This document shows, piece by piece, positions 9,372 through 46,083 of a stretch of 64,000 nucleotides of DNA (positions within the stretch are counted from its first letter, which is position 1; each line of letters begins with the position of its first letter). This stretch comes from Desulfurococcaceae archaeon (GTDB taxonomy: Archaea > Thermoproteota > Thermoprotei_A > Sulfolobales > Desulfurococcaceae), in NCBI GenBank assembly GCA_038845865.1, contig JAWBQJ010000005.1, positions 1 through 64,000 on the forward strand. Reading direction: 5' to 3'. A program made the translations under genes and the position numbers. The notes under the pieces were generated by a model, which saw only the letters and a program-made list of their open reading frames with translations, did no database searches and was not told the DNA's origin.

Positions 9372-11048
9372 TTAACTAGGCTTTACAACCTGCTTGTAGC
9401 GACGCACCGTCTCGTATATGGTGATCGTGGCCACGATCATTGTCGAAATGTACACCACCGCGTATTCCTGTACTAGTAGTAGGGGTTGGTGCCTGTAGAT
9501 GTAGTCGTAGAGGAGGTAGATCTGGAGTGCTACTGCGAGCATGCACATCAAGAAATCCACGACGGTGTTCAGTACTATTAGTGGAGTCGCCCTCTTGAGC
9601 CCGCTAATAGAGCTCAGCATTATTTTAGTTAACTTACGTAGCGTTGCTACGTGCACTAGTAAAATCAGTACTAGCGAGGTAATCATGACCAGGGTTGGTA
9701 CTAAAGTGGGGGCGTTAAAGTGCATTAGCGCTTCGAGGGTAACGCTGGTAACGGTGGTTATTATTAAGGAGAGCGCCGAGAACCGGATCAGCGCTGACAG
9801 CGCGTTCAGTGAGAACTCTACCCGCCCATAGTAAACCCTGGAAATGGCGTTAATGGCCTTGATCATTCGGCGGGGTAGCAGCGCCTCTATTCGTGTTGCT
9901 ATGTTGGAGGACTTGGGGGTAATTGCCGAAGAGATGACCATTGTGAAGAGAACAGAAAACGTCACGAGAATGACCAGGTTAACCCCGATAAACCCCCTCT
10001 CCGCGAGCGCGTACGCGAAGATCATTCCCGTCTCGCTAATTGGTGCGAGGATCAGTGATGTGTGCACAGAGCTCCGCACATCCATGCCTGAGACGGCAAG
10101 CCCCAGCGCGATTCCAACCACTCTCGTGGCTATCGCCACGAGAGCGAAGACCGCTGCGTGAGCGAATAGGGTGAAGTCTACTCTGGGCATCCAGGGCGCG
10201 ATCACCAGGCCCAGCGTTGTGAAGTAAAACAGTAAGCCCAGTTCTCTCACACCACTTAACATGTCCTTAACGTCGCTTAAATCGAAGTACAGGGATGCAG
10301 CTAACCCGGCTATGAAGGCCCCTATAAGCTCGGGCAATCCGAGTGAAAAAGCGAAGGTGGAGAACAGCATTGCTAGTACAACTAGCGTAAAGAACTTCTC
10401 CGCCCTGCCCCGAGTGAATGGGCTCTTACTAAGCAGCATAGACAAGTACCTCGCGGCAAGGAAGAGCGCTAACACCGAGCCAGCCAGCCGTAAGGCGTCG
10501 AGCAGTGCTTGAATCGCGTTCAGTCGTTGAACCTGGGGAGCCGTAACTAGCAAGCCGAGAATTACGAACTGTAGTAGGTCCTCGAGGCTGGTCTGTAAAG
10601 CGGCTCTTTCGTACACATCCCCCCTGAGACCCGACTTCCGGAGAGCGACTACCGCGAGCGTGGAGGAGTTCACGATTACCAGGAAGACTAAGAGACGCTC
10701 CAGTACACTGAGCTCCAGTAACGTGACGAGAACCCCGCTTGTAATCCACGCCACTATGAGAAAAACAAGCTCCGCTGACAAAACCACATGGGCTGACTTG
10801 GTGACCCCCCGAATGTCCAGGGAGGCTCCTACCTCGAACGAGAATAGTATCAACCCAATTAACCGGATCGGCTCGGCATACTCAACCACACCCTCCACGG
10901 CCACTCCAAGGCGTTCTAGCAAGTAGTACGAGAGTATACCGCCGAGCACAAAACCCACTATTTCTACCAGCCCGAGCCTTTTGAAGGTCCACGCTACGAG
11001 CACGGCCGGCACGATCAAGTATAGCACGGCCAAGACATCAGTACTCAC
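9372..11048 (-). CDS. CPA2-type (Kef/NapA-like) cation/proton antiporter
   Basis: 558 residues started at the GTG at 11048, where AAGGTG lies 7 bp upstream (the frame runs back to an ATG at 11078 with no such site). About 12 membrane segments fill residues 1-390, with the CPA2 layout: an early EIVGFVLGGILSYYLL segment, PIRLIGLILFSFEVGASLDI, a loop with LQTSLEDLLQFVILGLL, then GLPELIGAFIAGLAASLYFD and SLILAPISETGMIFAYALAERGFI. A further hydrophobic block of about four helices follows (430-550) in place of the TrkA-N/RCK domain found in Kef proteins. Expected role: Na+(or K+)/H+ exchange in the cytoplasmic membrane. It stands alone. Confidence 0.88.
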   Translation of the reverse strand: MSTDVLAVLYLIVPAVLVAWTFKRLGLVEIVGFVLGGILSYYLLERLGVAVEGVVEYAEPIRLIGLILFSFEVGASLDIRGVTKSAHVVLSAELVFLIVAWITSGVLVTLLELSVLERLLVFLVIVNSSTLAVVALRKSGLRGDVYERAALQTSLEDLLQFVILGLLVTAPQVQRLNAIQALLDALRLAGSVLALFLAARYLSMLLSKSPFTRGRAEKFFTLVVLAMLFSTFAFSLGLPELIGAFIAGLAASLYFDLSDVKDMLSGVRELGLLFYFTTLGLVIAPWMPRVDFTLFAHAAVFALVAIATRVVGIALGLAVSGMDVRSSVHTSLILAPISETGMIFAYALAERGFIGVNLVILVTFSVLFTMVISSAITPKSSNIATRIEALLPRRMIKAINAISRVYYGRVEFSLNALSALIRFSALSLIITTVTSVTLEALMHFNAPTLVPTLVMITSLVLILLVHVATLRKLTKIMLSSISGLKRATPLIVLNTVVDFLMCMLAVALQIYLLYDYIYRHQPLLLVQEYAVVYISTMIVATITIYETVRRYKQVVKPS

Positions 11049-11414
11049 ATCACAGCACCTTAAGAGCTTCAAAAGCATGAGTTCCAGCTACGTGGCCTCG
11101 CCTACCCCGGTAATGGTTAGATTGTTCAAGGCTAAAAACGGCCACGGTTCCGGGTATCAAGCCGATACGTGCTTAGCTCTATAGTAAACAGGGAATGCCG
11201 GGATCAGCGCGCGGTACGCCGTGCTGAAAACGCGCGCGGAGAACTCAGTGTAGTACTATACACGTCACGCGCAACCCGGTGATCCTTTGTCCACGCTAGG
11301 CTCGGCTCCGAGGATGTCAGATGTACTGTCTAGAAGGGCTCGAAAGCGGTCAAGTCTATTGTGAGGAGTGGGGTTGCCGATCAAGGTCAATAAACGCGGT
11401 AAAAAACGCGGCCT
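11049..11414. other. intergenic stretch, no supported gene
   Basis: About 365 bp between the antiporter start and the GMP synthase stop. Short open frames exist on both strands but none has protein-like composition with a ribosome binding site. The antiporter promoter should lie at its left end, but no clear TATA box is visible. Confidence 0.35.
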
Positions 11415-33403: not shown

Positions 33404-34984
33404 TCATACAAGTGGTGTTTTAACGAGGTCTGGGTAGTACTCTTTTAGCACCCTGAACATGCTTACCCTGGGCATGAACGACCTCGTTGCAGATAGTGCT
33501 ATGCTGTAAAAGGCCTCTGACCCCTCTTTAAACACCTTATATATTTTCAGGAGCTTGGCTTTCAGCTCGTCGTAGTCCCTTTCGTTTATTTCTCTGGCCT
33601 TTTCGCAGTGTAGGTCTATTGGTTCACGCAGGTCCTCGCCGAAAAGCCACCCGTTAATGCCATCAACTACAAATTCCAGTACTCCACCGTCTCTAACGGC
33701 TAGTGAGGGTACGCCGTTTATTGCTGCCTTCATGTAGCTAGTTCCACAAGCCTCCAGGCCCGAGAAGGGCGTGAATAGGAGCAGGTGCCCCGAGGACAGG
33801 AGTACTTTGGCTTTGAGCACGTCGTAGTTGTGGATGAATACGACGTTCGGCATTTCCCTGTGCATTTTCCTAAAGACCCTCATGTACTCTACGCCTGCGA
33901 GGTCGTGGGGGTGGGCTTTACCGCCTATGATGAATGCTATTGGCATGTCCTTAAGTTCGCTGGCGAGCTTTGCAATCATCCAGGGCCTCTTGTACTCCGT
34001 AATCCTTCTAGCCCACACGACGACGAGCTTGTTTTCTAATGTGATGTCTTTGTAGCTACGTAACAGCTTTTCGAGCTCGTAAACGAGCTTTTCCCTAATA
34101 CCTATTAGTAGGTCTAGCGTTAATTTGCGCGATTCGAAGGCCCATCTAATATTCGGGGTTGTCCACCTCTCCAGGTTAACACCGTTTGTTACGTAAGCTA
34201 GCTTTTCGTTAAAGTGCGGGAATATCCTACGTAAAACATCGTAGTGCTTGGCGGATACTGCAAGTGCTTGTTGAGCCGCCGCAAGACCTATCTCCGTCAG
34301 AAGGACTTCCTTCTCAATGAACTTGTAACCCAGCTCTCTCTCAAGCACTTCTCGGGGAAATGATGGATGCCCCCATATACCGGCTGTGTGTATTATAAGC
34401 CTGTACTTGCCGGGTATTTTTAGCTGAAGGGGTAACGTGGCTGTGTAGGCTTCTTGAAGGTCTATATACGCCACGCAGTCTAGTTCAAAGCTTCTCTTAA
34501 TGTACTCTGCGGCAACTTTAGAGAACAGTATGTACTTGTACGCCTTTTCCTCGGCATCGCTTTCAACGTATATCCTGCTCGTGATGTCTGCAACCCGTTC
34601 AGGGGACAGAACATTGAAGAAAACTGCCTTGGCGGAGCCGTACTTGTATGTAAGGGCCTCTACTTCCACGTCCTCGCCTCTCAGCTTAACCTTAAACCTA
34701 TCCTCAACAGATAAGTTCTTGACGAGTTCTTCGGGCTGTTGTTGCGGTTTTGGAACGGGGTTCTCACCATCATCGAAACTCCACTCCACGTAGCCGTACC
34801 TGTAAAACAGTGTTAGGGCCACGTACCTTAGCCCTAATCTGCCCGCAGCGTAGAACTTGTCACCTTCTAAAACACCTAAACCGCCCGCGTACGTGTACCC
34901 GGCGTCGAGCGCTAAGTCGGGCGTGACGCTAATAGCGTAACGGCTGGTATCAACGTCCACTTTGATCACCACGTTACCAAACAT
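33404..34984 (-). CDS. glgP: alpha-glucan (glycogen/maltodextrin) phosphorylase, GT35
   Basis: 526 residues from the ATG at 34984. This start was chosen because a TATA box lies about 26 bp upstream (leaderless transcript) and because the frame upstream overlaps the promoter of the divergent regulator; longer starts exist at 34999 and 35059. Signatures: AGGLGVLEGDKFYAAGRLGL, HPSFPREVLE, AYVTNGVNLERWT, ARRITEYKRP, and the pyridoxal-phosphate lysine in GTSYMKAAINGVPSLAVRDG. Catalyses phosphorolysis of alpha-1,4-glucan to glucose 1-phosphate in the cytosol. The short (under 600 residues) archaeal/Thermotoga-type form. Part of a glycogen locus with glycogen synthase and two GH57 enzymes. Confidence 0.92.
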   Translation of the reverse strand: MFGNVVIKVDVDTSRYAISVTPDLALDAGYTYAGGLGVLEGDKFYAAGRLGLRYVALTLFYRYGYVEWSFDDGENPVPKPQQQPEELVKNLSVEDRFKVKLRGEDVEVEALTYKYGSAKAVFFNVLSPERVADITSRIYVESDAEEKAYKYILFSKVAAEYIKRSFELDCVAYIDLQEAYTATLPLQLKIPGKYRLIIHTAGIWGHPSFPREVLERELGYKFIEKEVLLTEIGLAAAQQALAVSAKHYDVLRRIFPHFNEKLAYVTNGVNLERWTTPNIRWAFESRKLTLDLLIGIREKLVYELEKLLRSYKDITLENKLVVVWARRITEYKRPWMIAKLASELKDMPIAFIIGGKAHPHDLAGVEYMRVFRKMHREMPNVVFIHNYDVLKAKVLLSSGHLLLFTPFSGLEACGTSYMKAAINGVPSLAVRDGGVLEFVVDGINGWLFGEDLREPIDLHCEKAREINERDYDELKAKLLKIYKVFKEGSEAFYSIALSATRSFMPRVSMFRVLKEYYPDLVKTPLV

Positions 34985-35002
34985 CGGGTAACCTGGCATT
35001 TG

Positions 35003-35010
35003 AATATAAA
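35003..35010 (-). promoter_or_regulatory. TATA box of the phosphorylase gene
   Basis: The minus strand reads TTTTATATTC, with the first T about 27 bases before the ATG at 34984. The divergent regulator has its own TATA-like CATAATTTTA at about 35041-35050. Confidence 0.5.
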
Positions 35011-35083
35011 AGTGGCGCTGCTTAATAGCTTTACCTAAAAGCCATAATTTTAGCTGCATGAGAGTGAGGGTTGGTGATGGTGT

Positions 35084-35587
35084 GTGCCAGCGTCCCTCTC
35101 AAGGCTGATCAGCATACTGAAAAGTGTCGGCATGGAGTTCACCGTTAATGACATCGTCGCGAAGGCAGGGCTCTCGCCTAGTACAGCGAGAAGGTACGTT
35201 CGGGAAATGGTTAAGCAGGGCGTGGTCACCGGATTTAACGGTAAATACACCGTAACAGATAAGGGCCTCCTCCTGCTTGAAGGAGAAGCCATTTACAAAA
35301 AACGCGTTGAGAGCGCGGTAGCCTACGTATTCACGGACGAGGATGGAGCCCCATTGTATTTAAAAATAGATAGCGTCGAGAAGCTGTACGTTGCTTTAAA
35401 GTACGGTTTCGTACCAGACCGCGTAATTGTACACCACTTGACCAGGGGGTTCCTGTTTAGGTGGATCTCAGAGGCAGTGGGTGCGAAGATGCTTGCGCGG
35501 AGGATTAGGGACGTAAAGTCCGTCGAAGAGCTGGTCAAAACGCTCGAAGAGTATGCAGGCCTAGCTACCAGGAGCGGTTCTTTCTAG
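35084..35587 (+). CDS. winged-helix regulator with DUF5752-like C-terminal domain
   Basis: 167 residues. The N-terminal winged helix reads FTVNDIVAKAGLSPSTARRY then VREMVKQGVVTGFNGKYTVT with a hairpin wing. The C-terminal domain (about 78-155) has YVFTDEDGAPLYLKIDS, VIVHHLTRGFLFRWI and GAKMLARRIRDV, which align with the C-terminal part of the GH57 enzyme at 38038-39579 and resemble DUF5752. It is divergent from the phosphorylase gene by about 100 bp, so it is the obvious candidate regulator of the glycogen genes, with the second domain as the sensor. Start GTG 35084 with GGTGAT upstream. Confidence 0.82.
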   Translation: MPASLSRLISILKSVGMEFTVNDIVAKAGLSPSTARRYVREMVKQGVVTGFNGKYTVTDKGLLLLEGEAIYKKRVESAVAYVFTDEDGAPLYLKIDSVEKLYVALKYGFVPDRVIVHHLTRGFLFRWISEAVGAKMLARRIRDVKSVEELVKTLEEYAGLATRSGSF

Positions 35588-35620
35588 CACGGGTCACAAC
35601 CCTTTCTAGTAACTCGGAGA

Positions 35621-37186
35621 CTACGGTATGTGCCTATCGAACTCGCTAATCCACAGCGTTATCATCTCCTCGTCCCAGAACTCCGCCCACCAGTAATCGC
35701 TGTCAAGCACGTGCCATAGTGCCCATTCAGCCTTCACGGCTTTCTCGTCAAGCCCGTGCTTGAGAATGTACTCCTTGTACCTTGCAATTCTACGCTCTAC
35801 CATTTCCCAGAACACTTCATGCTCCACCCTCTCTCCTTTCCACTTGGTGTACGATCCCAGCCATGTAGTTGATGGCACGTACCATAACTTCCGTACCGGT
35901 GGCGTCGACCTCAACACCTCCTCAGCCGTTGTGAGCTTCGCCAAACCGAGCTTTCCCAGCCTCTTAAGCAACAATAGTACCGTCTCCAGGAACACGGCCG
36001 TTGCCGGTGGGTTCTTGGAAAAAGCCATCCAATTCTCGCCGTCAAGGGCTATTGTCAGTACCTTGGCCCTGTTCCTGGCGCACTTGTCAACGAGCTTCGA
36101 CATGAAGGCGTAAGCACCCTTCACGGCGTGGATGTCACTACAGTAATTGTTCGCAAAGCCCACGTCATTGCTGAGCTCAGTGTCCCTAAATAATACTGTT
36201 AAGGTGTTTCCCGAGGAGTCCTGGACTACGTATGGCTCGTAGTGGTCCCCGATGTCCCCTTTTGCACCGTTAAAGTGGTACCTTTCATCTAGGAACGTGT
36301 ACTCTAAGTTCTGCGATTTCAAGATAGATATGAGGTTCATGGAGAAGGACATCTCCGGCAACCAGATGCCCTTGGGCTTCGAGCCCGTGAACTCTTCCGT
36401 TATGTTGTACCCGTACTCCACTTCCCTACGTATTAAGTCTCCTAGGCCTAATACGTCGACTACGTACCCTGCTATCGTGTGCGCATAAATGCTCGTTAAG
36501 ACCTCTATAACGCCGCTTGAGGCGAGCTCTTGGTAGATATTCATGGTCTCTTTGACCACTTTAGCGAGCTCGGAATGAGGTGATATGATTTCGCCGGTTA
36601 TGGTCTTGATCCCCGTCTCCACGATGTCTCTCCACTGCCTGATCAGCGAGGGACTTATGTTGTAAACGAGCTTAACACCAAAACCCACTTCCTTGAGTAG
36701 GATGGCTTGGTAGTAGTAGGGTCCAAGACCGTAAGGAAACAATATGGGCTCCCACACATATGTAAACGGCCATAAACCCCTGTATACTGAGCGGGGACAG
36801 TAATTTGGGGGCTGATGATTATGAAGCACCATTAACACGTTAGTCGGATTTTCGAGAGAGCTTGTATCACGTACATCAATCTTCTGTGCGTCTAGAGTAC
36901 TGCCGTTAACGGCGAGCCTCGCTGTGCAGTCCTTTTTAGCATCAACGTACAGCTCTACTCCCTGTCTTTCACCTCGCAGCAGCCTAATGACCCGCCTATA
37001 TACGGTGTTTCCGCAAACATCTAGCTCCACTGCGAAGTCCTTGTCAACACCGTAGTTTCTAACGAAGGCTAATACCCTGACCTCGTTCGCATCAACACTT
37101 TCAAACGTGTCCACGACTACGTACCCTTCAAGTGGGCCTAGAAACCTAGGCTCTACGAGGCTCTTACCGCACCTGCCTGTACTCAC
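35621..37186 (-). CDS. GH57 glycoside hydrolase (alpha-amylase/amylopullulanase-like), cytosolic
   Basis: 521 residues, no signal peptide. A small N-terminal beta domain (about 15-105) precedes the GH57 barrel: region 1 LHNHQPPNY (121-129), region 3 GIWLPEMSFS with the nucleophile candidate Glu278, region 4 ALDGENWMAF with acid candidate Asp382. The C-terminal helical part continues to RHIP. These regions are those of amylopullulanase/alpha-amylase-type GH57 enzymes acting on alpha-1,4 or alpha-1,6 glucans. Since it lacks an export signal it should act on internal glycogen, perhaps as debranching enzyme or amylase. GTG 37186 with GGGTGA upstream; it diverges from the aldolase gene. Confidence 0.9.
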   Translation of the reverse strand: MSTGRCGKSLVEPRFLGPLEGYVVVDTFESVDANEVRVLAFVRNYGVDKDFAVELDVCGNTVYRRVIRLLRGERQGVELYVDAKKDCTARLAVNGSTLDAQKIDVRDTSSLENPTNVLMVLHNHQPPNYCPRSVYRGLWPFTYVWEPILFPYGLGPYYYQAILLKEVGFGVKLVYNISPSLIRQWRDIVETGIKTITGEIISPHSELAKVVKETMNIYQELASSGVIEVLTSIYAHTIAGYVVDVLGLGDLIRREVEYGYNITEEFTGSKPKGIWLPEMSFSMNLISILKSQNLEYTFLDERYHFNGAKGDIGDHYEPYVVQDSSGNTLTVLFRDTELSNDVGFANNYCSDIHAVKGAYAFMSKLVDKCARNRAKVLTIALDGENWMAFSKNPPATAVFLETVLLLLKRLGKLGLAKLTTAEEVLRSTPPVRKLWYVPSTTWLGSYTKWKGERVEHEVFWEMVERRIARYKEYILKHGLDEKAVKAEWALWHVLDSDYWWAEFWDEEMITLWISEFDRHIP

Positions 37187-37215
37187 CGCGTTGTCACCCT
37201 CGTTTCCTGGTATAA

Positions 37216-37887
37216 ATGTTGCGCATAGGTATAAATGCCGTTGAGTTCTTAGAGGATACTTTGGGGTTTTACGTGTACGAAGAATTGAAGAGGGATATTG
37301 TGAACGCGTTCCACTACATGGAGGAAAGGGGCTGGAACTATGGAAGAGCCGGTAACATAAGTGTTTTCGTTCGCGAAAACGGGCACGTCCTCGTAACTCC
37401 TAGTGGTGTTTTAAAAGCCAAGTTGAAGCCCGAAGACATACTGGTACTAGATGTTAAGGGCAATCTATTAGAAGGTCGTGGTAAGCCCACTATAGAGCTC
37501 CCCCTCCACTTAGCAATATACGACGCGTACGAATACTTCAACGCCGTAGTACACGCGCACGGCGTGTACTCCACCACCTTATCCATCACTAGAGACCCCT
37601 TGCCGCTGCTAATCGAGGAAATGGTTATGTACCTAGGTGGTGAAGTCAGGGTCGCTGAATACGCCCCTTCAGGTACCGAAGAGCTGGCTGAAAAGGTCGT
37701 CAAAGCCCTCAATGGTAGGAAAGCCGTCATCTTAGCTAACCACGGAGTGGTTGCGTGTGGAAAAGACCTCGAAGAAGCCGTTGAAGTCCTAGGCCTCGTA
37801 GAGAGGCTTTCGCAAATATACATACTAGCTAGGTTACTTGGAAAAGTACACCTGTTATCGACCTCAGAAACGAAGCCCACTCCTTAA
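37216..37887 (+). CDS. class II aldolase/adducin-family protein (fuculose-1-phosphate aldolase-like)
   Basis: 223 residues. Family motifs: GRAGNISVFV, VLVTPSGVLKAKLKPEDI, the zinc-binding histidines in VVHAHGVYS and ILANHGVVACG, the catalytic-type Glu in IELPLHLAIYDA. These enzymes split sugar phosphates such as L-fuculose 1-phosphate to DHAP and an aldehyde, or act on related sugars. The start is ATG 37216, but GTG 37273, just before YEELKRDIVNAF where the family fold begins and with two GGTATAAATG elements upstream (37209, 37228), is a fair alternative. A partner for the isomerase-like protein at 6845 cannot be claimed from distance. Confidence 0.87.
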   Translation: MLRIGINAVEFLEDTLGFYVYEELKRDIVNAFHYMEERGWNYGRAGNISVFVRENGHVLVTPSGVLKAKLKPEDILVLDVKGNLLEGRGKPTIELPLHLAIYDAYEYFNAVVHAHGVYSTTLSITRDPLPLLIEEMVMYLGGEVRVAEYAPSGTEELAEKVVKALNGRKAVILANHGVVACGKDLEEAVEVLGLVERLSQIYILARLLGKVHLLSTSETKPTP

Positions 37888-38037
37888 GATCCAGCCGTCT
37901 CAGTGGATGGCTGTTCATCGGCTTTCATGTTCTTTCCGGGATGCGTTAAGTCCTCAATGTCCCTTGCTGGAGAAGTGCGCGGGGCTCGTTGCCGTGGACT
38001 CCATGTACTCGCATGATCTAGGTACGCAGCGCAGAGT

Positions 38038-39579
38038 TCAAGGAAACAGGTATTTCTCTATTGCTTTGAGTACTAGTAGGCGCTTCTCTTCCGGTGAAGC
38101 TTCCACTCTTGCTATTTCATCTAGTTCGCGGTAAAGTCCTTCTAGGAAATACGTGTCTCTAAGCCACCTTTGAATATCACCGTTGTTGAGGTGTTTGACG
38201 AAGCAATTAGCTGGGATGATCTTCAGTATGCTGAGGAATTCCTTAATAGACGTAGCTGTGAGGGGGAGAGTGCCGTCCTCAGTACACTTGAAGTGAAACC
38301 CTCTTTCGGGCGGTAAGACGAGGTTACGTATTAGCCTAGATGGCTCTCTCCGCGCCCTTTCCGCTACGATGTAAAATAGCACTGCTAGCGATTGTACGTA
38401 AAGCGTGTATGCGTCAACCGCGTTTTTATACGGACTAAAGTACTTGTGAACTTCCTCAAAGGAGCCGAACTTCGTGGCCATGTAGTAGAAGTGATCACTT
38501 ACCGTTAAGAGCCTCCAGAGCCTTAACAAATGAGGGTCTTCGAGGGCATCCACGTACCTCCTCAAGTCCAGTAGCATGTTAAACGCGTTTTTCTGTAGGC
38601 TATTACCAAGCCACGGGCTCGTATCCCTTTCATCGGCCCAGCTTATAGTAGACCAGGGAGGCACGTTGTAAACATCTACAGCGGGGTGTTCAAACGCCGC
38701 TAGGGATGGAGTGGAGAACTTCAAGTGATTGTATTTAAGTACCTCACCGGGAAGCCATTTAAGGAAGTCGTGGATGCCGGTCTCGGGCCAGTGGTGTTCG
38801 CCAAAGGTTTCATAGTCCATCGCTATCAGAATCACATCTCCTGGAGTTGCAGCGAGCCAGGACGCGTACTTGCCGGGGGTAAGGGGGTACTGGTCCCACG
38901 CCACGTTGCTGAACCTAAAGCCCACGTCGTCGCTGAGCCTGTAGTTCCTCGTTAGGATCCTGATATCGCAGTGGTACCCCCTGTAAACGAAGTTAGGGTT
39001 TCTCCAGCCTAAAACATGGTCAACTCCCTCGGTTAAGATGACCTTGAACCCCGCTGAGTACAGCTCGCAAGCCATGTCGTTGTTATAAATGAACTCCGTG
39101 TTTTCGACTGTTACGGGTTCTACGCCGAAAACGCTCTTCAGTAGCTTTACGTGCATGTCCACCTGTTCTCTTAGTTCACGGTAGCCGGGTATGAGCGAGG
39201 CCATGCTGTGGTAGTATGTCTGGGCCACCAGCTCGGCACAACCCGTATTCGCTATTTCCTGGAACAGTTCAACGACCCTCGGTACCCAGCGCATGGCTTG
39301 TTCAACAAATATGCCTGAAATGCCGAAGGAGACCATGAACTTCCTATCGCTATCCCTGTACTTCTTAATATTCTCGAGGATTATCGATGACGCGGGTATG
39401 TAGCACTTGCTCGCTGCCCTCTCCATGACGAGCTTGTTAAGGCCCTGGTCGAACAGCACATCCTCTAGGTCTTTAATCTCTAACGTGCCGCGAATAGCCT
39501 TCTCTACGAGCTTTTCGTGCATTCTCCTATCAAGCCTGTAGGGTTGGTGTACCTCGAAAAATAGAACAATGTCCTTCAT
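38038..39579 (-). CDS. GH57 alpha-amylase-like enzyme with C-terminal DUF5752-like domain
   Basis: 513 residues, cytosolic. GH57 regions: FFEVHQPYRLDRR (8-20), QTYYHSMASLIPGYRELREQ, TVENTEFIYNN with nucleophile candidate Glu162, AMDYETFGEHHW with acid candidate Asp255. The barrel and helical part end near residue 425. Residues about 430-505 (FHFKCTEDGTLPLTATSIKE, ANCFVKHLNNGDIQRWL) form a separate domain resembling DUF5752, shared with the regulator at 35084. Likely an intracellular alpha-amylase acting on glycogen or maltodextrin. Start ATG 39579. A glycogen synthase gene with a terminator lies just upstream on the same strand. Confidence 0.9.
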   Translation of the reverse strand: MKDIVLFFEVHQPYRLDRRMHEKLVEKAIRGTLEIKDLEDVLFDQGLNKLVMERAASKCYIPASSIILENIKKYRDSDRKFMVSFGISGIFVEQAMRWVPRVVELFQEIANTGCAELVAQTYYHSMASLIPGYRELREQVDMHVKLLKSVFGVEPVTVENTEFIYNNDMACELYSAGFKVILTEGVDHVLGWRNPNFVYRGYHCDIRILTRNYRLSDDVGFRFSNVAWDQYPLTPGKYASWLAATPGDVILIAMDYETFGEHHWPETGIHDFLKWLPGEVLKYNHLKFSTPSLAAFEHPAVDVYNVPPWSTISWADERDTSPWLGNSLQKNAFNMLLDLRRYVDALEDPHLLRLWRLLTVSDHFYYMATKFGSFEEVHKYFSPYKNAVDAYTLYVQSLAVLFYIVAERARREPSRLIRNLVLPPERGFHFKCTEDGTLPLTATSIKEFLSILKIIPANCFVKHLNNGDIQRWLRDTYFLEGLYRELDEIARVEASPEEKRLLVLKAIEKYLFP

Positions 39580-39638: not shown

Positions 39639-39660
39639 AAAAACCGGCGCCGTAGCCGGT
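39639..39660 (-). terminator. hairpin-plus-U-tract terminator after glycogen synthase
   Basis: On the minus strand a perfect 6-bp stem ACCGGC/GCCGGT with loop TACGGC is followed at once by TTTTT. It lies 30 bp after the glycogen synthase stop and before the GH57 gene, so it would separate the two transcripts. Confidence 0.6.
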
Positions 39661-39689: not shown

Positions 39690-41234
39690 CTATGCATGGG
39701 CCCTGTAGTAGGCCATCCGCCTCGCTAACTCGTAACAGGAGAGAATGCTGTTAACGGTGTGTTCAGGCCTAAAGAACGCATCAACGTAGTTTACCGCAAC
39801 CTTCCTCAGCCTTTCTCCAAACTTAGGCTCCCTCACGGCCATGCTTCTAAGCTCCTCGGTGACGACCTTATCAAGCCCTTTACCCGTTTCGCCGTAGTAC
39901 ATTAAGTAACCCAGGCTCTGGATTGCAGTGGCCAGGTCGAAGGCGTTATTAGGTTGCACTAAGATGCCTACGCCGAGCGGCGTTGTCCTCAAATCGCTTA
40001 CGTACTCCCTTAACCCACCAACAGCTGAAGCAACAAGCGGTGTTCCAAGGGCTAGCGCCTCTATACCAGCAATTCCGAAAGGCTCATACCTTGAAGGAAG
40101 GGCATAAACGTGTGCCACGTAGATGAGTAATTGGTAGAGGGGTGGTGGAGGGCCTTCCACGGCTATAACCGCCCTGCCCTTAACGGAGTCTAGTAGGCTC
40201 TTCAAGTAAGCCTCGTAATCATCATTTCCCACCCTTAAACCGAGGATGATTACCTTGATCGAGGGTGGCAGGAACCGTGCCGCGTATAAAAGCGTGTCGA
40301 ATCCTTTTTGAGGCGTTAGCCTGCCGGAAGCCACCACCAGGACTTCGCCATCCTCGATCTCGAGGTGGCCCCAGACGCTGGAGCTGCGTAACGAGTCTTC
40401 TACGACCTTCCATCTAATCCTCTCTCTCCTACTAGAACTGTACTTACTCGTTGCAACCTCTTCGACATCTTTAACGCTCCACGAGGTCGAGTTGTAAGAG
40501 TAGCAGCTTTTACCTCTGATCCACTCGCCGTAATCCCTAGCTAACAACTCTACTTCCGACCTGCTTACCGTAGCCACCGCATCGGCTAGCTTCACTATAA
40601 AGCACTCTACACTGCCCCAGCAACCGTTCCATAGGCTCCGCGTAGATTCAAAGATGTGCCTTGTAACTGCCCACAGCCTTTGAACGGCGTCTGGGACCCC
40701 ACACCACTCCTCAGAAGCGTAGTGCCAGGGATACGAAGGCGACCCCCTCAGGTGCACTTGGTAGAGTACGGGTAAGGAGTAGCCCCGCAACTCTGCATCT
40801 ACTTTAAGCACGACGGCCGCTAAGGCCGAGTGCCAGTCGTTTGCGTGAACCAGGTCGGGATAGCCGTGTTTCTGCGCTAGGCACCGAACGGCCCTAGCTA
40901 GTAGGCACGCCTTCTCGTCAACGTGGTTGTAAGGAGGCCAGGTATTTAAAACCATTGACGTCCTGGAGTTCTTGCCCTTAACGAGTACTACTCTAACGCC
41001 TCCGATAACTCCCTCTAAGAATGCCAGGTCGTAGGGGTACGTGTTGCCGTCAGCACCATACCTGTTACCACTACACTCGACGTCTAGTTCCCGGAAGTTT
41101 GAGGGACGCACGCCGTGAGAAGGCATTATAACCGTTAAATCAAGACCACGCTTGGCGAGCTCACTACTCACTAGTGATACCATTTCCCCTAGGCCGCCGA
41201 CTTTCGCCACTCCACTAAATTCAAATGTAAGCAT
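39690..41234 (-). CDS. glgA: glycogen synthase (GT5)
   Basis: 514 residues from the ATG at 41234, with GGGTG just upstream and the family N-terminus MLTFEF beginning there; TTG 41267 and GTG 41240 are alternatives. KVGGLGEM (11-18) is the ADP/UDP-glucose binding loop; VHANDWHSALAAVVL, ASGRLTPQKGFDTLL and the C-terminal SRYEPFGIAGIEALALGTPL with the E-x7-E pair follow. It elongates alpha-1,4-glucan from a nucleotide glucose. Together with the phosphorylase it makes a synthesis/degradation cycle. A loop (about 265-295) rich in Ser and Lys appears to be an insertion. Confidence 0.93.
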   Translation of the reverse strand: MLTFEFSGVAKVGGLGEMVSLVSSELAKRGLDLTVIMPSHGVRPSNFRELDVECSGNRYGADGNTYPYDLAFLEGVIGGVRVVLVKGKNSRTSMVLNTWPPYNHVDEKACLLARAVRCLAQKHGYPDLVHANDWHSALAAVVLKVDAELRGYSLPVLYQVHLRGSPSYPWHYASEEWCGVPDAVQRLWAVTRHIFESTRSLWNGCWGSVECFIVKLADAVATVSRSEVELLARDYGEWIRGKSCYSYNSTSWSVKDVEEVATSKYSSSRRERIRWKVVEDSLRSSSVWGHLEIEDGEVLVVASGRLTPQKGFDTLLYAARFLPPSIKVIILGLRVGNDDYEAYLKSLLDSVKGRAVIAVEGPPPPLYQLLIYVAHVYALPSRYEPFGIAGIEALALGTPLVASAVGGLREYVSDLRTTPLGVGILVQPNNAFDLATAIQSLGYLMYYGETGKGLDKVVTEELRSMAVREPKFGERLRKVAVNYVDAFFRPEHTVNSILSCYELARRMAYYRAHA

Positions 41235-41302
41235 CCACACCCTCTCTATGCGTGGCGGAGCGTGCAAGCTTCACTACCCAGGGTACTTTACAGCTCTCGA
41301 GA

Positions 41303-42649: not shown

Positions 42650-43579
42650 CTAGCCGTATCCTCCTACAGTGACCTTTAAGCCTGTTTTCTCTATTTCCTC
42701 CTTGATGAGGTTAAGCCTATCAGTTGATGCTTTTAGTCCCGGTGGCATTTTGTATTCGAGGTCTAGGCGCTCATACTTTTCCCTCACATCGTGGTATGGA
42801 AGTAGGTCTACCCTTAAGATAGTCTTCAAGTTTAAAGATGAGAGCAGATCGATCACGCTTTTTAGGTTCTCATCGGTATCCGTTATGGTGGGTATTACTG
42901 GTATTCTTATAATGATCGGCTTGCCCGTGGCGTTCGCGTAGAGCAGGTTTGCGAGTATCGGTTTATTGGATACCCCAGTATACTTTACGTGAGCAGCGTC
43001 ATCTACTAGCTTTATATCGTAGAGTAGTAAGTCAACCAGCTCTAGGACTTCTCTAAAAACGCCTGATGGCGCGTAGCCAGAAGTCTCAATTGCGGTGTGT
43101 ATCCTCCTAGCTCTGCATGCTTTGAGTAGTTCGGTGAGAAACCCCGCCTGTACTAGTGGTTCCCCACCACTAAAGGTGACACCCCCTCCACTAGCATCAT
43201 AGAATGGTATATCTTTTTCGATTTCAGCCATTACCTCCTCCACGGTCATTTCCTTCCCTATAAACCTGAGGGCGGTTGTGGGGCAGTTCTCCGTACACGT
43301 TCCGCAGAGATTACAGCGGCTTCTATCTATCTTGACCACGTTCCTTTCCTCGTCGTATAGTAGGGCCCTCTGAGGGCAGATCCCTATGCAGGTTTTACAC
43401 CTAATGCACTTGTAACTTATGTAAATTAAGGAGGGCTCTATCGTTAGGCCCTCGGGGTTCTGGCACCACCAGCATCTAAGAGGACAACCTTTTAGAAAAA
43501 CAAGCGTTCTTATTCCAGGCCCATCGTAGATCGCGAATCTCTGTATATCAAACACGATTCCCTTAACCGGTTTCACCAC
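42650..43579 (-). CDS. glycyl radical enzyme activating enzyme (radical SAM)
   Basis: 309 residues. The radical SAM motif CPLRCWWC lies at 32-39, then the ferredoxin-like insert typical of non-PFL activases with two Cys sets (C58, C61, C64, C68 and C89, C92, C95, C99) for two further 4Fe-4S clusters. GGGVTFSGGEPLVQ is the SAM-binding GGEP. DGPGIRTLVFLKGCP is characteristic. It abstracts hydrogen from the glycine of the partner enzyme encoded 15 bp upstream, generating the glycyl radical. Start GTG 43579 or 43576. Confidence 0.95.
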   Translation of the reverse strand: MVKPVKGIVFDIQRFAIYDGPGIRTLVFLKGCPLRCWWCQNPEGLTIEPSLIYISYKCIRCKTCIGICPQRALLYDEERNVVKIDRSRCNLCGTCTENCPTTALRFIGKEMTVEEVMAEIEKDIPFYDASGGGVTFSGGEPLVQAGFLTELLKACRARRIHTAIETSGYAPSGVFREVLELVDLLLYDIKLVDDAAHVKYTGVSNKPILANLLYANATGKPIIIRIPVIPTITDTDENLKSVIDLLSSLNLKTILRVDLLPYHDVREKYERLDLEYKMPPGLKASTDRLNLIKEEIEKTGLKVTVGGYG

Positions 43580-43593
43580 GATCGCCGTCGTTA

Positions 43594-46083
43594 CTAGAGC
43601 TCCCGGTGCTCTGTCCGGGCAATGATTTCGTCTTGTAAGCCCTTGGGAAGCTTAACGAAGTAGTCGCTGTAACCTGCTACCCTGACCATTAGGTCTTCAA
43701 AGTCTTGCGGCTTTCTCTGGGCTTCGCGAAGTAGTTCGGCACTTACAACGTTAAACTGGACGTGGTGGCCCCCGAGCCTAAAGAACGTTCTAATAGCTAA
43801 GACCAGCTTCTTGTAGTTCTCTTCATGGTCGAAGAAATCGGGCATTAGCTTAGCGTTTAGTAAGGCTCCGCCGGTTTTATCCCAGTCTACCTTGGCCACT
43901 GACTTGAAGACTGCTAGTAAGCCTTTACGATCCATTCCCTGTACGGGGGAAACCCCTTCGGATACTGGAAAGCCTGCTTTCCTGCCATCCGGCGTCGCCC
44001 CCGTAACCTTTCCGAAATATACGTGAACCGTTGTGGGTAGCCAATATATGTGGCGCGTTGCTCTTCTAATCGGGGTGGGCGGGTAGCTCTCGACCATTTG
44101 AACTAAGGCTTCGTTAAGCCTCACTGCGATGGAGTCTACGTAGTCGTCGTCGTTACCCCAGTGTGGTATCTTGTTAACGATGAATTGCCTTAACCACTCG
44201 AAGCCCTCCCAATTCTTGTTCAATGCTTCGAGCACCTGGTCCATGGTGACGATCCTGTGATCGAATACCAGGTATTTTATTGCAACCAGAGAGTCTACGA
44301 CGGTGCCTAGTCCAGCCATCTGTATGTACTGGGTATTGTACCTAGCGCCGCCCGCGTTATAGTCCTTGGCGTTCTTTACGCAGTCCTCGATCCAAAGCGA
44401 GAGGAAAGGTACCGGTAGCTCGTCGGCGTAGATCTTTTCGATGATATCGTTTCCACGCATTTTAATGTCTAGAAAGTGCTTGACTTGCTTCAAGTACGCT
44501 TCCCACAGCTCGTCAAAGCTCTTAAAGCTCCTCGGGTCGCCGGTCTCTAACCCTATCTTCTTCCCCGTCCTCGGGTCAACCCCATTATTAAGCGTTATTT
44601 CCAGGATCTTGGGTAGGTTGAAGTAGCCTGTAAGTATGTACGCTTCTTTTCCAAACGCCCCTGATTCCACGCAACCACTAGCTCCGGCGAGGCGCGCATC
44701 CTTTAAACACTTACCTTGTCTAAGCATTTTTACTACTATTCCATCGTGATTGAAGAATGGAGGCTCGCCGAAACCCCTCGAAGCCATTTTTAGAGCCCTT
44801 ACGAGAAACTCCTCGGGGGTCTTCTCGGATACCTGTACAGCGAGGTTAGGTTGTAGTGTCGGCATTAGCTCCTCTCTAGCTTCAATTATGAGGTACGAGA
44901 GCTCGTTGACGGCGTTCTTGCCGTTCTCGTCCACACCGCCCAGGTTGATCTTGGCGAAGTCGTTATATGTGTAGCTCTCCTCGGCTGTTACGCCCACCTT
45001 AGGTGGTGCTGGTTGAGCCTCAAATTTTAGTAAAAAGCACTGAAGCAGCTCCTTAGCTTTCTCTCTAGTCAACTTACCGGTTTCTAGGTCTCTCTTGTAA
45101 AATGGATATAGCCACAAGTCTAAACGGCCGGGGCTAAAGGAATCCCAGCCGTTGGCTTCGTAAACTACACCAACATGTATAAACCAGTAATGCTGTAGTG
45201 CCTCCCAGAAGGTTTCCGGGGCACGTGCTGGAACCTTCTCGCATATAGCGGCCATCTGCAGTAATTCCTCTTTCCGGGCCGGATCTCCCTCCTCCTCTGC
45301 CATTCTCCTTAGCTTGTCGGCGTACCGCTTAGCGTAAACAAGCATCGCATCGGCAACTATCTCCATGGCCTCTAACTCCGCGAGCTTGTTCTCGTATTCA
45401 GGGTCCTCTGGATCAAGCATTTCTCTTACTTTCTTTATCTCTTCCTTGACGTCTAGTAGCCCTGTTCTGAATATTCTTTCGCCTCCGCAGGTGTGGCCGG
45501 GTGCTCTCTGCTCCATGAACTCTGTGAAGATGCCTGCTTCGTAAGCATCAAGCCACTCTTTGGACATGGATTTAAAGAGCTTTTCCCTGACGGTCTTGTT
45601 TTTCCAGAATGGTATTACCTTCTCCTCGTAGATCTTGAAGACCTCCGGATCTACTCTATACGGCATCCTCTCCCTTGAATTGAGTATCTCTAAGTCCTTG
45701 AGGGTGTGACAACATATCTCAGGGTATGTAGGGACCTCTTTTACCCACGAACCCCTTATACCCACAATAAGCTGACCCCACTCTACGGGGGTGGAAACCC
45801 TTTCCAGTAAGTACTTAAACGCTAAAGCCCTCTTCACGGGGATTGGTTTATTACGGCATTCGGGTTCACGCTCGCATTTTTCATAGAACTCTGTAATGAG
45901 CTTGGCCCTTTCCACCGACACCTTTACAGTCGCTTTACGGTATTCTTCGAGAAGCCTGAGAACTCTAAGGCTAGAAGGGCGGGGCCCTTCTCTCCTCCTA
46001 CTAATCTCCTTTAGAATACCCACCTGGATGCCAGCACCGTGGATTTCAGCGTGTAAAGGTTGCGAGGCACTCAAATAAAACAC
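43594..46083 (-). CDS. hypD: glycyl radical enzyme, trans-4-hydroxy-L-proline dehydratase (HypD)-like
   Basis: 829 residues. The active-site cysteine loop GASGCVESGAFGKEAYILTG has Cys471 and Glu473, with Tyr487 exactly 16 residues after the Cys; the glycyl radical site RVAGYSDYF has Gly804. Compared from memory with bacterial HypD (H160, D278, S334, D339, F340, C434, E436, Y450, T645, G765), equivalents are visible: H197 in APGHTCG, D314 in GWDSFSPGR, S370, D375, F376, Thr684 or Thr685, all at nearly constant offset. HypD dehydrates hydroxyproline to delta1-pyrroline-5-carboxylate. The GTG at 46083 gives an N-terminus about 37 residues longer than HypD; GTG 46023 is an alternative. Strictly anaerobic enzyme. 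Confidence 0.88.
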   Translation of the reverse strand: MFYLSASQPLHAEIHGAGIQVGILKEISRRREGPRPSSLRVLRLLEEYRKATVKVSVERAKLITEFYEKCEREPECRNKPIPVKRALAFKYLLERVSTPVEWGQLIVGIRGSWVKEVPTYPEICCHTLKDLEILNSRERMPYRVDPEVFKIYEEKVIPFWKNKTVREKLFKSMSKEWLDAYEAGIFTEFMEQRAPGHTCGGERIFRTGLLDVKEEIKKVREMLDPEDPEYENKLAELEAMEIVADAMLVYAKRYADKLRRMAEEEGDPARKEELLQMAAICEKVPARAPETFWEALQHYWFIHVGVVYEANGWDSFSPGRLDLWLYPFYKRDLETGKLTREKAKELLQCFLLKFEAQPAPPKVGVTAEESYTYNDFAKINLGGVDENGKNAVNELSYLIIEAREELMPTLQPNLAVQVSEKTPEEFLVRALKMASRGFGEPPFFNHDGIVVKMLRQGKCLKDARLAGASGCVESGAFGKEAYILTGYFNLPKILEITLNNGVDPRTGKKIGLETGDPRSFKSFDELWEAYLKQVKHFLDIKMRGNDIIEKIYADELPVPFLSLWIEDCVKNAKDYNAGGARYNTQYIQMAGLGTVVDSLVAIKYLVFDHRIVTMDQVLEALNKNWEGFEWLRQFIVNKIPHWGNDDDYVDSIAVRLNEALVQMVESYPPTPIRRATRHIYWLPTTVHVYFGKVTGATPDGRKAGFPVSEGVSPVQGMDRKGLLAVFKSVAKVDWDKTGGALLNAKLMPDFFDHEENYKKLVLAIRTFFRLGGHHVQFNVVSAELLREAQRKPQDFEDLMVRVAGYSDYFVKLPKGLQDEIIARTEHREL

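Follow-up and report, generated by a model that had tools for sequence, protein, structure and literature searches.

The OrfY protein of Thermoproteus tenax is known from a PDB entry (4CSO) titled 'OrfY protein, transcription factor'. It belongs to Pfam family DUF5752 (PF19027), consists of two tandem copies of one module and is encoded beside the trehalose synthase TreT. We analysed the first 64,000 nucleotides of contig JAWBQJ010000005.1 (assembly GCA_038845865.1; hereafter the window), a glycogen/maltodextrin region of a Desulfurococcaceae archaeon with a genome of 1.45 Mb. Two intact open reading frames (ORFs) in the window each encode a protein with a single copy of the module. One is R (35084-35587, plus strand), a regulator of 167 residues in which the module follows a winged helix-turn-helix (wHTH), and the other is a 513-residue enzyme of glycoside hydrolase family 57 (GH57) that carries the module at its C-terminus (38038-39579, minus strand; hereafter the GH57 enzyme). 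The R module has the same fold as OrfY, and the module of the GH57 enzyme matches OrfY by sequence; unlike in OrfY, each protein has only one copy, fused to a wHTH or a GH57 enzyme and encoded in a glycogen locus.

Three further systems resemble parts of the two proteins. The wHTH-DUF5752 proteins of Bathyarchaeia (for example L121, 8857-9426) likewise consist of a wHTH followed by one module, but they form a separate clade and their pairing with GH57 is not one-to-one. Aquifex aeolicus amylopullulanase (9KYQ) has the same catalytic part as residues 1-404 of the GH57 enzyme. Sso10a/HTH_45 winged-helix proteins have the same N-terminal wHTH as R, to which R adds the C-terminal module. The fold (4CSO) and the Pfam family are already known, and in some relatives Pfam picks up the module fused to a wHTH or to a GH57 enzyme, so that these architectures can be found from the database. 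By our literature search, the matched pair of R and the GH57 enzyme and their coupled loss seem to be undescribed. The search, which lay largely outside subscription papers, found none that names DUF5752, 4CSO, or OrfY alongside either Thermoproteus tenax or trehalose. The titles and opening lines of abstracts on GH57 alpha-amylase in Desulfurococcales and on archaeal glycogen regulators held nothing relevant, and the word OrfY did not occur in passages of two trehalose papers (PMC3634074, PMC7688234).

A module shared by R and the GH57 enzyme

Both proteins carry a module of about 80 residues, a beta-hairpin followed by five helices, which corresponds to half of the DUF5752/OrfY tandem. In R, the wHTH occupies residues 1-72 (35084-35299, plus strand; Pfam HTH_45/HTH_IclR, with the model helices and wing at 5-71), passes the Pfam HTH_45 cut-off (33.7 versus 25.5 bits) and has structural matches to many wHTH regulators. 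The module follows at residues about 79-158 (35318-35557, plus strand), where it superposes on 4CSO and is matched by A6 (E 1.1e-22), a joint profile of 32 rows of regulators, GH57 enzymes, and wHTH and single-domain carriers. In the GH57 enzyme, the Pfam Glyco_hydro_57 domain covers residues 5-307 (E 7.3e-79), residues 1-404 superpose on the GH57 amylopullulanase 9kyq (Z 36.0), and the module lies at residues about 423-513 (38041-38313, minus strand; A6 E 1.1e-24).

By BLASTP, R and the GH57 enzyme are 30% identical over 63 positions (E 1e-4). We built two separate hidden Markov models (HMMs), one from 29 regulator domains with no GH57 sequence among them and one from 28 GH57 C-termini, leaving out L030 (a fragment) from the former and L056 and L058 (contig end or frameshift) from the latter. 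Over the 1037 ORFs of the window, the regulator HMM detected R (E 3e-30) and the GH57 enzyme (E 5e-5), the next score being 0.55; the GH57 HMM detected the GH57 enzyme (E 3.5e-32) and R (E 1.2e-8), the next being 0.87. Alignment of the two domain alignments by hhalign gave a probability of 97.9% and E 3.2e-13 over 80 columns. With the regulator HMM, the 28 GH57 sequences of the family scored 10.3-27.3 bits; the maximum over 5600 shuffled GH57 sequences was 12.0 bits, and that over 119 further proteins of glycogen loci (GH57 paralogues, GlgA, maltokinase-like and debranching enzyme) was 5.7 bits. R also matches GH57 C-termini directly by sequence in two family genomes, G027 (E 4.9e-6) and G028 (E 7.5e-6). 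These results leave practically no doubt that the two copies are homologous, as the preliminary description had proposed. A chance or artefactual resemblance is consistent with the low identity (about 20-30%) and with the two weakest of the 28 GH57 scores, which fall within the shuffle range with the other 26 above it, but is hardly credible when the reciprocal HMM matches are the sole ones among 1037 ORFs, hhalign gives E 3e-13 and both modules match OrfY.

AlphaFold2 models of R (mean predicted local distance difference test score 82.5) and the GH57 enzyme (92.9) show the module as two strands and then five helices. In R, these are strands 81-84 and 90-95 and helices 98-106, 112-120, 123-132, 135-142 and 147-157; in the GH57 enzyme, strands 428-430 and 440-442 and helices 445-454, 457-465, 468-477, 480-491 and 496-511. 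The agreement of the two predicted structures that the shared domain called for was thus borne out when the models were compared by the order of their elements. Residues 73-160 of the R model superpose on 4CSO with Z 10.3 and a root-mean-square deviation of 1.9 over 86 residues. The superposition tool warns that a Z under about 13 can reflect a common helical-bundle arrangement, and it is therefore the sequence evidence that carries weight for the link to OrfY. Against all PDB sequences, the GH57 domain alignment had 4CSO as its single significant match (E 1.1e-11, both halves of the chain), and a whole-enzyme GH57 profile again found 4CSO as the sole match at E <= 1e-5, through residues 427-511. 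The sequence of 4CSO agrees with L082, a DUF5752 protein by Pfam. By hhalign, OrfY was matched by the GH57 module with E 4e-16 over 90 columns and by the R module with E 1.6e-6 over 38 columns. The R domain profile alone had no significant match among PDB sequences (best E 0.18). Foldseek with the R model returned wHTH-type matches in its top 50, the OrfY match coming from a second structure comparison; in the structure comparison of the GH57 model, which barely covered residues beyond about 414, 4CSO was not listed.

The likeness to DUF5752 put forward in the preliminary description therefore holds as homology (4CSO, hhalign) but not as membership by Pfam. PF19027 matched neither protein at the Pfam cut-off nor anything in the host genome at E 1e-3, and Pfam scans of the two C-terminal segments alone gave nothing of note. 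The 208-position PF19027 model is filled by two tandem copies, and R and the GH57 enzyme have one each. The GH57 orthologues in G021 and G022 do pass PF19027 (E 7e-10 and 4.5e-10), so the window sequences are divergent relatives. As they are under the cut-off and have one copy, we call the window modules one-half relatives of OrfY/DUF5752. The motifs and borders first described needed correction: R has Y-x-F instead of F-x-F, and the shared domain extends over about 80-158 in R and 427-513 in the enzyme. Over the 32 rows of A6, only one His and one Trp are invariant (H118/W127 in R, H463/W472 in the GH57 enzyme), and in the OrfY alignment an invariant H and W occur in both halves. The mean net charge of the module is -2.3 in R and -2.0 in the family GH57 enzymes, and that of the OrfY halves is -4.3 and -4.7; the winged helix of R has +5.1 (29 orthologues).

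Joint occurrence and loss of R and the GH57 enzyme

Among 40 genomes of the family, R orthologues are present in 30 and the GH57 enzyme in 29: both occur in 28 genomes, neither in 9, and one alone in 3. Two of the single-protein genomes are 76% (G033) and 78% (G020) complete, and the third (G037) is 93% complete with 7% contamination. In the 23 good-quality genomes, 19 have both proteins and 4 have neither (Fisher 1e-4, kinship ignored). With A6, every one of the 19 yielded exactly two module copies, those belonging to R and to the GH57 enzyme, and the other 4 yielded none.

The two genes are also linked. They lie at most 2.5 kb apart in 21 of the 28 genomes, and in 20 of these the distance is 1451-1597 bp with both on the same strand. 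Where checked, the gene between them is maltokinase-like (TIGR02457 E 3e-38, under the cut-off; PDB maltokinases E 1e-16). This gene and the GH57 enzyme are the conserved neighbours of R elsewhere. The window is atypical, with a gap of 2.5 kb and R in the opposite orientation.

The pair has been lost from three good-quality genomes (G006, G008, G010), all of which retain the maltokinase-like gene; the phosphorylase is also retained in two. No GlgA match was found in the three, nor, at the same threshold, in G001; as G001 has the pair, absence of GlgA is weak evidence. In G031, which gave no match to R, the GH57 enzyme or GlgA, phosphorylase remnants with several stops were seen (contig C14, 606-1552).

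We extended the comparison to the best 80 GH57 relatives in named genomes, many of which are also in the 40-genome set, so that the counts are not independent. The HMM found the module in 69 of the 80. Of the remaining 11 enzymes, L105 and L108, which are truncated or split between frames, were counted as carrying the module, a piece of it lying on another contig or in another frame. Six Thermoproteales enzymes (L135, L136, L138, L146, L153, L157) retain a reduced C-terminal remnant, as judged by eye, and three enzymes (L091, L139, L151) end before the module. The remnant of the Pyrobaculum/Thermoproteus type shows a motif like R-H-R-x-D-L-x-x-W. The GH57 gene of genome G004 is divided immediately ahead of the module (L058, 2700-2760), apparently by a short tandem duplication that shifts the frame.

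L091 (KUA_Bin18) is the closest GH57 relative found, with 77% identity. Its GH57 gene (9992-11239) ends immediately behind the linker, clear of the ends of its 131 kb contig. The L091 genome, a metagenome bin in which R could have been missed, has no match to the module profile or to R. Likewise, no module copy was found in the genomes of L139 and L151, whose GH57 enzymes lack it. Overall, a further copy outside GH57 is present in 49 of the 70 genomes with a module-bearing GH57 enzyme, compared with 2 of the 10 genomes in which the enzyme has no module or is left with a remnant (Fisher 0.004; 0.03 when Thermoproteales are left out; kinship ignored). In this set, L104 has only an R fragment.

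Other carriers of the module and neighbouring genes

Fusions of a wHTH to the module are common in Bathyarchaeia, and in 7 Bathyarchaeia loci of the 80 a wHTH-module gene lies near a GH57-module gene. Ten further wHTH-type proteins that we scanned (L121, L119, L178, L181, L188, L189, L196, L200, L202, L209) were all over the Pfam DUF5752 cut-off. The HTH cut-off was reached only by L121, with a tie, and L209, and the winged helix of the other eight rests on weaker matches and sequence reading. In the domain tree, the R modules of Desulfurococcaceae form one clade (support 100/99) and the Bathyarchaeia wHTH-module proteins a separate one (97/98). Independent origin of the two fusions was considered and cannot be claimed, as a common origin was not rejected by the approximately unbiased test (p-AU 0.17).

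The tandem OrfY gene adjoins TreT, identified by Pfam, in 21 of 22 loci (OrfY loci: L061-L082 and L171, L172 and L173). At L173, a gene for 737 residues and two more close by resemble, by eye, the Thermoproteus msc-gt-tpsp operon. A tblastn search of plasmids with OrfY gave no match. Single-domain module proteins adjoin an Lrp/AsnC-type regulator gene at L174 (2615-3476) and L175 (6084-7013), the neighbour in L175 being judged by its likeness to that in L174. A coiled-coil fusion occurs at L195. Four Bathyarchaeia proteins of about 250 residues (L250, 5540-6295; L251, 5716-6486; L252, 5698-6450; L253, 5467-6210) combine a GIY-YIG-like N-terminus, the module and a zinc-ribbon-like C-terminus with CxxC. 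Because its carriers are so varied (GH57, wHTH, single, tandem, coiled-coil, GIY-YIG-like), we regard the module as mobile.

At least one of a panel of eight alpha-glucan/trehalose genes was present in 15 of 40 regions with wHTH or single-domain carriers, versus 0 of 20 controls (Fisher 0.001). The 40 regions (L180-L219) were hand-picked by open-frame length and the controls hand-placed, mostly in the same genomes; L213 repeats part of L177, and several regions end at contig ends. The commonest panel match was GlgA-like, at 24-35% identity. In outline, gene content suggests an association of the module with alpha-glucan and trehalose metabolism, many carriers sitting in such loci.

In the window, an alpha-glucan phosphorylase gene (33404-35059, minus strand; NCBIfam more_P_ylases E 1e-48, under the curated cut-off) is divergent from R. 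It is a neighbour outside the conserved pair, and in other family genomes it is distant from R or on another contig. The suggestion that the region 34984-35084 is a promoter through which R controls the phosphorylase is accordingly weak, as this neighbourhood was not seen in the other genomes checked. Beyond R lie a second GH57 gene (35621-37186, minus strand; Pfam Glyco_hydro_57 E 8.5e-29), which neither domain HMM matches, and a class II aldolase gene (37216-37887). A glycogen synthase-like GlgA (39690-41267, minus strand; Pfam Glyco_transf_5 E 2.6e-25) precedes the GH57 enzyme, and in the interval separating the stop of GlgA from the start of the GH57 gene a short GC-rich hairpin and then a T run (39643-39660, minus strand) look terminator-like by eye. 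The window GlgA is only 26-36% identical to the GlgA-like proteins of the family, compared with 53-65% for the GH57 enzyme, and the host genome yielded no maltokinase-like gene; from these two observations, the locus looks rearranged or partly replaced. Further on (42650-46083), genes for a glycyl radical enzyme (PFL-like, 829 residues) and a radical SAM activase, and then an Ldh_2 dehydrogenase, were seen, in an archaeon.

Possible roles of the module

The module is most likely a small non-catalytic regulatory module, and a regulatory role is considerably more probable than a catalytic or DNA-binding one. Its position beyond the GH57 catalytic part and its absence from some enzymes argue against catalysis. 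As the module is acidic on average and the winged helix of R is basic, the simplest assignment of DNA binding is to the latter. This leaves input, docking or assembly as its possible roles. Going beyond the homology, fold, co-occurrence and gene linkage described above, we infer that R would be a local one-component transcription factor that binds DNA by its N-terminal winged helix, with the module serving for input and/or oligomerisation. In the GH57 enzyme, the module at the C-terminus would be an accessory domain, separate from the catalytic part, that receives the same input. The likeliest input would be a small metabolite of glycogen/maltodextrin turnover. Small-molecule input is favoured because the enzyme copy stands without a partner in 21 genomes, because the module recurs in regulators and enzymes, and because its His and Trp are invariant; as the specific mechanism it may well apply, and we hold it with reserve. 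Small ACT and RAM domains are common to enzymes and regulators of amino-acid metabolism, and the present module would resemble them in logic and domain shuffling, not in fold or homology.

Several observations weigh against this reading. Beyond the family, the pairing is loose: 21 of the 70 genomes with a module-bearing GH57 enzyme have no further copy outside GH57 (one of them, G375, has two GH57-length copies), so the GH57 copy can exist without a partner. The Asp of R-G-D, common in GH57 enzymes and OrfY, is lost in R, and with only His and Trp invariant a common ligand site is not obvious. No shared inverted or operator-like repeat was found upstream of R, the phosphorylase, both GH57 genes and GlgA. 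No panel gene occurred in the stretch examined around 25 of the 40 sampled non-GH57 carriers. Finally, the GIY-YIG-like/zinc-ribbon proteins (the GIY-YIG match is under the Pfam cut-off) show no sugar connection; they weakened the idea of a sugar-only role, which is therefore not assured.

Given the coupled loss, the strongest alternative is docking, in which the module copies bind each other and the GH57 enzyme, free or bound to glycogen, titrates or co-regulates R. The 23 good-quality family genomes include none with a single copy, OrfY is itself a tandem of two copies, and the L091 lineage dropped the GH57 module and kept the enzyme, with no R found there; L151 and L139 similarly have neither a GH57 module nor a copy elsewhere in their genomes. 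A precedent comes from Thermoproteus tenax, where the trehalose synthase TPSP is described, in passages of PMC3634074, as activated by a complex with the product of the neighbouring gene gt. L091 at first made an obligate form of docking look convincing; the 21 genomes that keep the GH57 module with no further copy found outside GH57 weakened it, and we consider docking rather doubtful.

It is unlikely that the module is merely a homodimerisation or stabilising domain used by both proteins by chance. The great diversity of its contexts (wHTH, GH57, stand-alone, tandem, coiled-coil and GIY-YIG-like) would suit such a passive role, as would the enzymes in which the module is shrunken or gone and so not needed for catalysis, but the joint retention and loss of the enzyme's copy and R in the family would be left unexplained. 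That the module itself binds DNA, as the depositors' name for 4CSO and its frequent fusion to a wHTH might suggest, is most improbable for a domain that is acidic on average in R, in the family GH57 enzymes and in both OrfY halves, and that sits on a glycoside hydrolase.

Returning to regulatory input, we tentatively propose, as a reading that claims more than its parts and is correspondingly less secure, that the OrfY/DUF5752 half is a small and so far undescribed archaeal input domain, similar in logic to ACT or RAM domains, of a large family of wHTH one-component regulators and of the alpha-glucan/trehalose enzymes or operons that these regulators accompany, and that R and the GH57 enzyme of Desulfurococcaceae are a matched pair responding to one signal. 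If this is true, it would give a testable function to the OrfY fold (4CSO), a crystal structure labelled as a transcription factor, and would point to an undescribed archaeal regulator family, wHTH plus module, across Desulfurococcaceae and Bathyarchaeia. To our knowledge, no regulator of glycogen stores has been described in these archaea. The retention or loss of R and the GH57 module together hints at shared control of stored sugar, and the matched pair makes the question of how glycogen stores are regulated directly testable.

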